DNA from: Chryseobacterium fluminis
Lineage (GTDB): Bacteria; Bacteroidota; Bacteroidia; Flavobacteriales; Weeksellaceae
Direction of reading: 5' to 3'
Assembly (NCBI RefSeq): GCF_026314945.1
Contig: NZ_CP111121.1
Location: 3,100,001 to 3,164,000, forward strand
DNA: 64,000 bases
Under the pieces are notes generated by a model. It did no database searches, was not told the DNA's origin, and saw nothing but the letters and a program-made list of their open reading frames with translations. Made by a program: the position numbers and the translations under genes. Of the stretch, positions 2,639 through 11,603 are shown in pieces (within the stretch, counting starts at the first letter, position 1; every line of letters starts with the position of its first letter).

Positions 2639-3229
2639 TTAAATCCCTTTTTTATTTAAAACTTCATCCACAAAAACTTTTCTGCTTACTGCATCGTAAG
2701 ACTCTGTTTCTCCGAGTTCTACCAGGTCTTTCCCGGCAGAGGTTCTCATCGAATAGTTGGCCAGATTTCCGGTTCTCCTGCAGATCGCATGTACTTTAGT
2801 TACATATTCTGCAGTAGCCATTAAATTGGGCATTGGCCCGAAAGGTCTTCCCAGGAAATCCATGTCCAGACCGGCAACGACGACCCTCACTCCGGTGTTG
2901 GCCATCTGATTGGCGATTTCCACAATGCTTTCGTCGAAAAACTGTGCTTCATCAATTCCCACCACATCACAATTTGAAGCCAGCAATAAAATTTCGCTGG
3001 GGTTATCTACTGCCGTACTCCGGATCTTATTCTGGTTGTGAGACACCACATCTTCATCAGAATATCGGGTATCCAGCCTGGGTTTAAAAATCTCTACATT
3101 TTGTCCCGCCATTTCTGCTCTTCTCAGCCTTCTGATCAACTCTTCGGTTTTTCCGGAAAACATTGAGCCACAAATAACTTCCATCCAACCACTTTGTTTG
3201 GAATGATTAATTGTATTTTCTAAAAACAT
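2639..3229 (-). CDS. tdk: Thymidine kinase (type II)
   Basis: Phosphorylates thymidine to dTMP in the salvage pathway. The 196-residue protein carries the P-loop GSMFSGKT at residues 21-28 and the catalytic/Mg motif DEAQFF at 93-98, both diagnostic of the tetrameric type II family. The lasso region near residues 150-180 (ICRRTGNLANYS) has only a single cysteine, so the four-cysteine zinc site of E. coli-type enzymes is absent; I recall the same in other Bacteroidota. The gene stands alone on the minus strand, divergent from the acidic repeat protein gene. Confidence 0.95.
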   Translation of the reverse strand: MFLENTINHSKQSGWMEVICGSMFSGKTEELIRRLRRAEMAGQNVEIFKPRLDTRYSDEDVVSHNQNKIRSTAVDNPSEILLLASNCDVVGIDEAQFFDESIVEIANQMANTGVRVVVAGLDMDFLGRPFGPMPNLMATAEYVTKVHAICRRTGNLANYSMRTSAGKDLVELGETESYDAVSRKVFVDEVLNKKGI

Positions 3230-3258
3230 TTGTTAAATTAGCCGTATATTTCTATCAT

Positions 3259-9204: not shown

Positions 9205-9957
9205 ATGGATTTTCCTGTAACATTTCATCTTTTTGGTAAAACCATTCTTGCACATCCTCTGTTTGAAGCACTGGGGATGTTCATCGGTATGCGGTATTAT
9301 TTTTATTTAAAAAGAAAATCAGCAGAAAAATTATCGTTTAATACTTCCGCAGCTGTATTGATAGGTGCTACGGCAGGAGCTTTATTCGGTTCGAAACTCA
9401 TTGGAAACCTGGAAAATCCGTATCATGTTTTTGAACATTTTGATTTAAAAAAAATCTGGTCCAATAATACGATTGTCGGAGGTCTGGCGTTTGGATTGTC
9501 TGGCGTGGAGCTGGCAAAGAGAATCGTCGGTCATAAGGAGAGTACCGGAGATTTAATTGTTTTTCCATTGATACTGGCGATGATAATCGGACGGATAGGA
9601 TGTTTTCTTACCGGAATTGATGAAGAAACATATGGTCTTCCAACAGATTCTGTTTTTGGAATGTACCTGGGTGACCAGTATCTGAGACATCCTGTGGCGT
9701 TATACGAAATTGTATTTTTAATTCTGCTCTGGATCGGTTTAAAATATATTCAGCAGAAAGAAAAATATCCTTCAGGCTTTATCTTTCAGATCTTTATGCT
9801 GACTTATTTCACGTTCCGGTTCTTCCTGGATTTTATAAAACCGAGAGTGGAAATTGCCGGAAATCTCGGAACGATCCAGATCGTATGTATTTGTGTAATT
9901 ATTTATTACATTTATAAAATTCAAAATACCCTTATCATCATAAATATTAAGTCATGA
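9205..9957 (+). CDS. Divergent Lgt-family (prolipoprotein diacylglyceryl transferase-like) membrane protein
   Basis: A 250-residue polytopic inner-membrane protein of the Lgt fold. Family marks kept: GRIGCF at 129-134 (Lgt signature arginine), HPVALYE at 162-168, and the late FRFFLDFIKPR. Marks lost: where E. coli Lgt has the essential HGG motif this protein has VGG (residues 91-93), and the signature asparagine after GRIG is cysteine. Canonical Lgt moves diacylglyceryl from phosphatidylglycerol to a lipoprotein cysteine; without that histidine this copy is probably not the housekeeping Lgt. It overlaps the next small membrane gene (ATGA) and lies in an operon with a tetraether-synthase-like radical SAM protein, so a lipid substrate is a reasonable inference. 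Confidence 0.75.
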   Translation: MDFPVTFHLFGKTILAHPLFEALGMFIGMRYYFYLKRKSAEKLSFNTSAAVLIGATAGALFGSKLIGNLENPYHVFEHFDLKKIWSNNTIVGGLAFGLSGVELAKRIVGHKESTGDLIVFPLILAMIIGRIGCFLTGIDEETYGLPTDSVFGMYLGDQYLRHPVALYEIVFLILLWIGLKYIQQKEKYPSGFIFQIFMLTYFTFRFFLDFIKPRVEIAGNLGTIQIVCICVIIYYIYKIQNTLIIINIKS

Positions 9958-10190
9958 AACTTTTAACACTTTTGGAAGTTGGAGATCTTGGAGGGCTGGT
10001 TGTAATGATCATTCTGATCATGCTGTTTGGTGCCTTATTCATTTCGGCTGTCGTCACCTTATTTATAAAATTAATTTATGAATGGAAGGACGGTAAAAAA
10101 TTTTCGAGAAAACAGTTTATACAAACCATGATTATCTGTCTGCTGATCTGTGGTCTGATCAGCGGATATATTTGCGGGGGAGGGTTATAA
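9954..10190 (+). CDS. Small two-helix membrane protein
   Basis: A 78-residue protein, unrecognised. Two hydrophobic helices are visible at about residues 14-42 (GLVVMIILIMLFGALFISAV) and 57-76, joined by a basic loop EWKDGKKFSRKQF. Its ATG overlaps the stop of the Lgt-like gene by four bases, and the radical SAM gene starts 10 bases after its stop, so it is translationally coupled in a three-gene operon. It may anchor or chaperone its neighbours; that is inference from position only. Confidence 0.65.
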   Translation: MKLLTLLEVGDLGGLVVMIILIMLFGALFISAVVTLFIKLIYEWKDGKKFSRKQFIQTMIICLLICGLISGYICGGGL

Positions 10191-10200
10191 AATAAAGAGA

Positions 10201-11603
10201 TGCCAGTAAGAAACTATACGTATTACGATTATACCATCAGCCTGTGTCCAGAATGCCTGAAAAGGGTAGGCGCCAAGATTATTATAGAGGATGAAGCTGT
10301 TTTTATGACGAAGAGATGTCCCGATCATGGCTTTTTTAAAACAAAGATCGCATCGGATGTCCATTATTATAAAAACATCAGAAATTACAACAAAGCCTCT
10401 GAAATGCCTTTACATTTCGGGACGGAGGTAGAATACGGCTGTCCTTATGACTGTGGATTATGTGTAGATCATGAGCAGCATAGCTGTCTCTCTATCGTGG
10501 AAGTGACAGACCGGTGTAATCTGACCTGTCCGACCTGCTATGCCATGTCATCACCTCACTACGGAAGCCACAGGAGCCTGGAAGAGATAGAAGCCATGTT
10601 TGATATCATTGTCAAAAATGAAGGAGAGCCGGATGTGGTACAGATCAGTGGTGGCGAACCAACCATCCATCCTGAATTTTTTAAGATAATGGATATCGCA
10701 AAATCCAAACCTATTAAACACCTGATGCTGAATACCAATGGTATACGGATCGCCAATGATCCGGGATTCGCCGAAAAATTGGCTGCATATGCTCCGGAAT
10801 TTGAGATTTATCTGCAGTTTGACTCATTTAAACCTGAAGTTTTAACGGATTTCAGAGGAAAGGATCTTACTGATGTCAGAATGAAAGCCCTGGAAAAATT
10901 AAATGCCTTAAATCTTTCAACCACTCTTGTCATCGTTCTTCAGCAAGGTAAAAATATTGATGAAATAGGTAAAATCATTGAGTTTGCCTTAAAACAGAAA
11001 TGCGTTCGAGGGATCACTTTTCAGCCGGTAGAAATTGCCGGTAGAAACAGGGAAGATTCCTCACATGAAAAAATTACATTAACAGAAGTACGACAGGAAA
11101 TTTTAAATCAGTTTCCTCTTTTAAATTCGGACGATATTATTCCGGTGCCCTGTAATCCTGACGCTCTGGCTATGGGATATATCCTGAAGCTGGAAGGAGA
11201 AATTATTCCGTTAACGCGTTATATCAATCCTGCTGATCTGCTGAATAATGAAACCCGGAATACCATCGTATACGAGCAGGACACCGGCCTACAGATGCAG
11301 CTTCTGGATATTTTCAGTACAGGTATCTCTGTAGATAAAGTACAGCCTAAAGTCAATCAGTTATTGTGCTGTCTTCCCGAAGTTTCTGCACCCAATTTAG
11401 ATTACGATAATCTTTTCAGGATCATCATTATGAATTTTATGGACGCTCATGATTTTGATGTACGTGCTGTAAAGAAATCATGTGTTCATATCGTCAATAA
11501 AGACTTAAAGCTGATTCCTTTCGAAACCATGAACCTCTTTTACCGGGATGATAAAATTAAATACCTGGAAGAATTACGAAAAGAAGATAAGATTTTGTTT
11601 TAA
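10201..11603 (+). CDS. Radical SAM protein resembling tetraether lipid synthase (Tes/MJ0619-like)
   Basis: A 467-residue radical SAM enzyme. The SAM-cluster motif CNLTCPTC gives Cys106, Cys110 and Cys113; GGEP follows at 151-154. The N-terminus has two extra metal sites: CPEC (Cys16, Cys19) with Cys40 and His43 in CPDHG, like a rubredoxin-type knuckle, and CPYDCGLC with a later Cys96 (Cys81, 85, 88, 96). More cysteines occur near the C-terminus (VPCNPD, LLCCLPEV). This arrangement is that of the MJ0619/Tes group, where the archaeal member joins lipid tails through carbon-carbon bonds. The substrate in a flavobacterium is unknown. Co-transcription with an Lgt-like protein supports a lipid or lipoprotein target. 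Confidence 0.8.

Follow-up and report, generated by a model that had tools for sequence, protein, structure and literature searches.

Lgt-like and Tes-like radical SAM enzymes in a widespread three-part locus with small membrane proteins that carry a C-terminal cysteine

The question raised by a locus in the genome of Chryseobacterium fluminis is what an enzyme of the Lgt family and a radical S-adenosylmethionine (SAM) enzyme resembling the tetraether synthase Tes might do together. The window analyzed here is a stretch of 64,000 nucleotides (contig NZ_CP111121.1, positions 3,100,001 to 3,164,000), in which three co-directional open reading frames (ORFs) are tightly packed on the + strand at positions 9205-11603, as are all features of the locus described below: they encode an Lgt-like integral membrane protein of 250 residues (9205..9957, matching PF01790 LGT), a small membrane protein of 78 residues (9954..10190) and a Tes-like radical SAM protein of 467 residues (10200..11603, assigned by profile, sequence and structure comparison). 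Genome comparison shows that the predicted parts travel together: an Lgt-fold enzyme, a radical SAM enzyme with the Tes fold, and between one and three small membrane proteins. We propose that the locus is a dedicated protein-lipidation system, in which the Lgt-like enzyme would lipidate a C-terminal cysteine and the Tes-like enzyme would modify lipid tails by radical chemistry; we put the probability of this reading at roughly one half.

A first-pass annotation of the window, made from its letters, had built on the pairing of the two enzymes, and that pairing persists among homologues; an Lgt-like gene missing from most of them would have counted against it. In a phylum sample of 395 genomes, where a radical SAM relative was counted at E 1e-40 or better, 34 genomes have such a relative and 31 of them score at least 335 bits; all 31 also have an Lgt-like gene (at least 86 bits), and in 29 both genes share a contig, no more than about 1.2 kb apart. 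Of the three weaker genomes, G132 (32% identity) has the pair side by side and G102 and G337 do not, while one further genome, G054, has an Lgt-like gene (at least 86 bits) and no radical SAM partner. Among the named loci, the top 80 out of at least 554 relatives and partly from the same genomes, 77 have an Lgt-like gene, always upstream and on the same strand; it ends less than 300 bp from the radical SAM gene in 63 and farther away, up to 1.6 kb, in 14. The three misses comprise one locus cut by a contig end (L110) and two whose genomes hold a strong Lgt-like gene at another place (L125 and L135), the coordinates in L125 fitting a place about 3.9 kb upstream. A neighbor cluster search of 32 fetched regions plus the window yielded, apart from the two enzymes, no neighbor present in over 10 loci; the next cluster, of 10 loci, is by eye a mixture of short-chain dehydrogenase-like proteins whose positions are scattered, and one of 8 loci resembles lepA (by eye).

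The third component, as judged from its conservation, is the 78-residue protein, whose C-terminal cysteine went unremarked in the first-pass annotation. It has hydrophobic helices, a positive loop before the last of these and, near its end, C74 (SGYIC-GGGL; codon 10173..10175), the cysteine conserved in small ORFs chosen by position. Comparable genes, one to three per locus, lie between the two enzyme genes in Chryseobacterium-type, Sphingobacterium and Apibacter loci and, in most others, just after the radical SAM gene. Their products share a common plan and little else: a last hydrophobic helix, a positive loop before it, and a cysteine followed by a further 2 to 16 residues. No Pfam or NCBIfam family matches the 78-residue protein at E 0.01 and none covers the small proteins as a group, the commonest weak match being DUF4064 (5/56, best E 1.8e-5). 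A spurious ORF is ruled out by the conserved place and tail.

The cysteine was assessed blind, by taking the most hydrophobic small ORF at the expected place in each locus; 65 of the 80 loci gave a candidate and 15 none. A cysteine falls within the last 21 residues in 64 of these 65 ORFs, against a chance expectation of 9.3% (cysteine rate outside the tail) or 39% (the higher rate inside the last helix), and at the sole exception, L158, two other small ORFs carry it. A stricter Cys-tail test gave at least one match in 71/80 loci, compared with 3/80 antisense regions and 7/144 distant windows; of the nine loci it missed, L098 and L106 show the tail on inspection by eye, and L126 and L133 run off the contig. 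Among loci of the triad type, a loosened version failed for L062, L072, L168 and L169, the tail being visible by eye in the last three. The 98 small ORFs counted from here on were selected by a test that requires the cysteine and, ahead of the helix, a K or R; cysteine invariance in alignment A5 (mean column identity 16%) is therefore by construction, and at least four of the 98 (L136, L139, L149, L162), which overlie the Lgt gene or occupy unusual positions, may be chance reading frames. One helical turn before the cysteine, 92/98 have a small residue (G or S), compared with 12.8% expected. Tandem copies occur in up to 21/71 loci, or 19 after removal of the chance-looking ORFs.

The first-pass annotation had spoken of a flavobacterial pathway, a description that proved too narrow. 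Beyond Flavobacteriales, the system occurs in Sphingobacterium, Mucilaginibacter, Chitinophaga, Xanthocytophaga and Persicobacter, where a plasmid carries the full triad, and in actinobacterial records. In those of Mycobacterium branderi, M. avium and Nonomuraea, a radical SAM relative of 26 to 28% identity has as neighbors an Lgt-like gene and genes for one or two membrane proteins in which a helix is followed by a Cys-Thr-Gly-(Leu/Ile)-Asn-Pro end; in Nonomuraea this end closes a proline-rich protein of much greater length. The predicted gene arrangement recurs across the phylum and in these records and is not a product of chance.

What, then, might the Lgt-like protein do? The Lgt fold claimed for it earlier is upheld by structure comparison and by its PF01790 score (81.9 bits, cut-off 24.9). 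It does not reach the NCBIfam lgt equivalog cut-offs (42.5 of 334, 33 of 118.9 and 18.5 of 636 bits); a separate canonical Lgt in the same genome scores 178.7 bits. In alignments, V91 (9475..9477), which precedes the GG of the HGGL motif, stands at the place of the catalytic His103 of E. coli Lgt, a position at which none of 30 Lgt-like proteins of the triad system has His. Within a G-R-I-G-C stretch (9589..9603), R130 (E. coli R143) is kept and C133 takes the place of N146, as a Cys does in 30/30. Y201 and R205 (9805..9819) align to E. coli Y235 and R239; together with R130 they are invariant in all 30, Y201 not being diagnostic, as no Tyr is seen opposite it in 18 of the 21 other Lgt proteins of the same alignment. 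H103 is reported to be essential in E. coli Lgt (PMC4728403) and N146A to be inactive (PMC8689077). An ordinary Lgt duplicate is ruled out by the missed lgt cut-offs together with the two catalytic residues not found.

The small protein offers this enzyme a plausible acceptor. The stretch from the positive loop through the last helix to the C-terminal cysteine shows, at the level of predicted topology, the geometry of a lipoprotein signal helix shifted to the C-terminal end. Since the loop is positively charged it is probably cytoplasmic; the positive-inside rule would then have the 78-residue protein face outward at both of its ends, its cysteine lying where the last helix ends on the outer side. 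Lgt encounters its acceptor, and binds phosphatidylglycerol, at this same place (PMC4728403). Because an Lgt-family enzyme is locked to a protein with a single conserved cysteine at an outer helix end, this cysteine is the likely acceptor: the Lgt-like enzyme would move a phospholipid diacylglyceryl group onto it at the outer face of the inner membrane, which would make the small proteins substrates and not helpers, as the tandem copies also suggest. The residue directly before the cysteine is G, A or S in 9/98 small ORFs and the full lipobox pattern is present in 4/98, the cysteine being C-terminal and not placed after an N-terminal signal helix; with so few suiting lipoprotein signal peptidase, cleavage is unlikely, and the product would probably remain embedded in the membrane, uncleaved and bearing a lipid at its tail.

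The radical SAM protein matches the profiles Radical_SAM (95.3 bits) and Zn_ribbon_HMPTM (71.5 bits), shows the full-length Tes fold by a wide margin over others in structure comparison and matches 7tol at E 1.7e-62 in a PDB-sized search; among the families listed in the VIA-align rows for the two enzymes, none is near besides Tes and Lgt. The best structural match therefore came out in favor of the first-pass annotation, for which a non-lipid family would have counted against a lipid pathway. Two of its motif assignments are borne out, the radical SAM CxxxCxxC (C106, C110, C113; 10515..10538) and the site it gave as CPEC with CPDHG, which is the rubredoxin-like C16-x2-C19-x20-C40-x2-H43 (10245..10328), spaced as the Tes ligands C9-x2-C12-x20-C33-x2-H36 (PMC9433317). 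In the third, CPYDCGLC with Cys96, the cysteines were placed correctly: C81-x3-C85-x2-C88 and H91 form the predicted N-terminal auxiliary [4Fe-4S] site (10440..10472), aligned to Tes C73, C77, C80 and a His. The partner at Tes spacing is H91, and Cys96 was rejected as fourth ligand because comparison with Tes favors His91, the fourth ligand of this site in the Tes structure being a histidine (PMC9433317). C96 (10485..10487) belongs to an HxC motif that relatives associated with Lgt or with a methyltransferase share and that Tes, L073 and L074 lack. As HxC is kept before the radical SAM cluster in L072 and in the actinobacterial proteins, which have lost the N-terminal cluster cysteines, C96 may be a catalytic or cluster residue of its clade. 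Candidates for a C-terminal auxiliary cluster, by alignment only, are C318, C390/C391, M411 (aligned to Tes Met439) and C428 (11151..11483): C318 and C428 are invariant in the 16 rows of alignment A2, and M411 and C390/C391 are kept in the main group and not in L069-L072. Set against the Tes C-terminal cluster, M411 and C428 align and the other Cys ligands are shifted.

The fold does not make the protein a Tes in the strict sense. Strict membership of the MJ0619/Tes group, as the first-pass annotation had it, is not supported by a score of 274.4 bits where NF045702 has a cut-off of 450, nor by position: in the phylogeny that the annotation had proposed as a check, Tes groups with L073 and L074 (100/99) and the window clade falls outside, long branches leaving the deep placement unsure. 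The best curated match is TrsS (NF045646; 321.8 bits over residues 12-452, below its cut-off of 490). L073:8864-10321, from genome G102 of the same phylum, scores 493.8 bits, over the Tes cut-off, and has no Lgt-like gene within the fetched region and no adjoining Cys-tail ORF.

Tes is reported to take long acyl chains and, ahead of C-C coupling, to trap the chain radical through a C-S bond at its C-terminal cluster (PMC9433317). Because the radical SAM protein shares the Tes fold, we favor chemistry on lipid tails, either those of the donor lipid or those of the small protein once lipidated. The cytosolic enzyme would abstract hydrogen from an acyl chain, acting on the phospholipid donor ahead of transfer or on the protein that has received the lipid, and a new C-C or C-S bond would follow, by tail joining or by insertion of sulfur from the C-terminal cluster; with low confidence, we favor the joining of iso-branched chains. 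The most specific version is a tentative one that we think improbable in its full detail: a His-less Lgt paralogue, in two phyla, would load diacylglyceryl onto the tail cysteine of small, multi-spanning membrane proteins, an uncleaved counterpart of the lipobox site, and the Tes-like enzyme would join acyl-chain ends, giving a protein with a stapled or membrane-spanning lipid.

Several observations weigh against a lipidation system, whose chemistry is predicted by comparison. His103 and Asn146, both needed in E. coli Lgt, are lacking in 30/30 Lgt-like proteins, so the acceptor or the mechanism may differ, and the residue before the cysteine is not that of an ordinary lipobox. In the radical SAM protein, Ile431 stands at the place of Tes Tyr459, which is strictly conserved in archaeal Tes, and PFC has become PFE, with loss of its cysteine; Y459L Tes is reported to be still active (PMC9433317). 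Its score is also nearer to TrsS than to Tes. The positive loop before the last helix, present in 95/98, is partly demanded by the selection test. The two enzymes are on different contigs in G070 and G307, five assessable named loci (L109, L115, L131, L135, L157) have no Cys-tail gene near the radical SAM gene, and L062 has no Cys-tail ORF by the loosened test or by eye.

The full-length Tes fold would also suit an enzyme that joins or alters the tails of free, iso-branched phospholipid, the Lgt-like enzyme acting on that lipid and the small protein anchoring or presenting it, with a structural cysteine. Tes binds bacterial phospholipid (PMC9433317), and a role in making branched glycerol dialkyl glycerol tetraethers (brGDGTs) has been proposed for bacterial Tes homologues (PMC8941075). 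We nevertheless consider such remodeling unlikely, as it leaves unexplained both the tandem copies and a cysteine conserved in 64/65 small proteins that are otherwise dissimilar. Tandem small genes with a conserved cysteine, coupled to a radical SAM gene, could alternatively encode precursors like those of ribosomally synthesized and post-translationally modified peptides (RiPPs); the radical SAM enzyme would then alter their residues, for example by a thioether at the cysteine, and the Lgt-like enzyme would serve anchoring, export or immunity. Lipidated RiPPs are known from an enzyme subfamily of Chryseobacterium type (PMC12636315); we rate this explanation as quite unlikely. A small-molecule radical SAM enzyme of TrsS or pterin type, linked to the membrane genes by chance or regulation, is very unlikely: TrsS gives the best curated score, some relatives are named 7,8-dihydro-6-hydroxymethylpterin dimethyltransferase and three sister-type plasmid genes pair with a methyltransferase, but the Lgt-like partner is kept across phyla, no methyltransferase recurs among the neighbors in the 32 regions and the window, bar the ICMT-type gene in L069-L071, and the pterin annotation of Tes itself was judged incorrect by its structure authors because the pocket is hydrophobic (PMC9433317).

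Lipidation of the tail cysteine thus remains the reading we prefer, and the surroundings of the locus can be described beside it. The triad is flanked by an IMP dehydrogenase/GMP reductase-type gene and by surE, both on the opposite strand, so that the three genes form a unit of their own. The 78-residue gene starts inside the stop of the Lgt-like gene (an ATGA overlap), and 9 bases separate it from the radical SAM gene; the packing and overlap had been described correctly before, the spacer as 10 bases. The nearest named relatives are from Chryseobacterium, where 19/24 genomes, the present one included, have a strong radical SAM gene (94 to 97% identity). The Lgt-like protein is far more variable (62 to 86% in five relatives), and so is the 78-residue protein (57 to 64% in three; that of L052 is not alignable by BLAST). 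A decayed fragment elsewhere in the genome (G000:C2:4990881-4991237; locus L206, about 2882-3238) resembles the C-terminal quarter of the radical SAM protein, at 31% identity and with six in-frame stops, and adjoins a gene pair that by eye resembles an insertion-sequence transposase.

Some relatives have further partners. In L069, L070 and L071, from distant families of the phylum, ICMT (PF04140) and DUF4395 genes lie between the radical SAM and Lgt-like genes; Pfam was run on L070 and L071 only, PF04140 scoring 50 to 59 bits in both, DUF4395 was scanned in L070, and the observation of the two genes is confined to these three loci. ICMT enzymes modify lipidated cysteines in eukaryotes, and by analogy the gene fits a lipidated-cysteine theme. 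In Sphingobacterium (L097-L101), the radical SAM proteins share 83 to 85% identity with the one in the window, against only approximately 68% in Flavobacterium, a wide gap that suggests transfer between families. L144, labeled as a Limnohabitans metagenome-assembled genome of another phylum, branches inside the Bacteroidota of the radical SAM family; a binning error is possible. Nine plasmid matches were found and seven examined (H1, H2, H3, H5, H7, H8, H9; H4 and H6 were left out). L164, L165 and L166 are plasmid-borne, TrsS-like radical SAM genes in Mycolicibacterium, Salinirubellus and Haloarcula (approximately 30 to 35% identity) paired with a methyltransferase-domain gene, with no Lgt gene on their records and no Cys-tail ORF; the two haloarchaeal ones are also near a DUF547 gene.

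Literature searches for the triad and for its parts found no published description of such a system in titles and abstract openings, subscription journals being mostly outside this coverage. By all comparisons made here, recognizable enzyme families are combined in a real and widespread three-part system, a combination we did not find described. Bacterial Tes homologues have been discussed in their own right: Zeng et al. counted 456 and proposed a brGDGT role (PMC8941075), Lloyd et al. noted homologues in bacteria not known for biphytanyl chains (PMC9433317), and a 2025 survey counted such homologues as possible brGDGT genes, calling this role unconfirmed (PMC11868695). If our reading is true, bacterial lipoprotein chemistry would extend to C-terminal cysteines, radical lipid-tail chemistry would be placed in common cultivable bacteria, and the reading of bacterial "Tes homologues" would change: the criterion of E below 1e-50 and identity above 20% (PMC8941075) would probably accept the window protein, a member of a different, Lgt-coupled clade. 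This would bear on claims about the sources of bacterial tetraether lipids used as palaeothermometers.

Compared with known systems, the radical SAM protein is like Tes (GDGT-MAS, MJ0619; PDB 7tol/7tom) in its full-length fold and in the spacings of the rubredoxin-like site, the [4Fe-4S]N site with its His and the CxxxCxxC, and unlike it in the extra HxC, the Lgt-like and small-protein partners, the sub-cut-off score and the separate clade. It matches the TrsS radical SAM (seleno)protein over nearly its whole length and has the HxC also seen in methyltransferase-paired relatives, but Lgt-like and small membrane genes adjoin it in place of a methyltransferase. From Lgt (PF01790, 5azb) the triad protein differs by the missing catalytic His, by Cys for Asn146 and by scores far below the NCBIfam cut-offs. 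In MYXO-CTERM tags, the part that follows the Cys motif is a membrane helix. The MYXO-CTERM/myxosortase system shares with the triad a C-terminal membrane tag with an invariant cysteine, but there the Cys motif leads and the rest of the tag comes after it, whereas in the triad the cysteine follows the helix (PMC11980579). The diacylglycerol-modified DAG-RiPPs, whose enzyme subfamily includes Chryseobacterium, likewise unite a small ribosomal product with lipoprotein-type lipidation and rely on the ordinary N-terminal lipobox pathway and an MNIO (multinuclear non-heme iron-dependent oxidative) enzyme (PMC12636315); the triad instead has an Lgt paralogue of its own, an enzyme of the radical SAM type and a cysteine at the C-terminal end.
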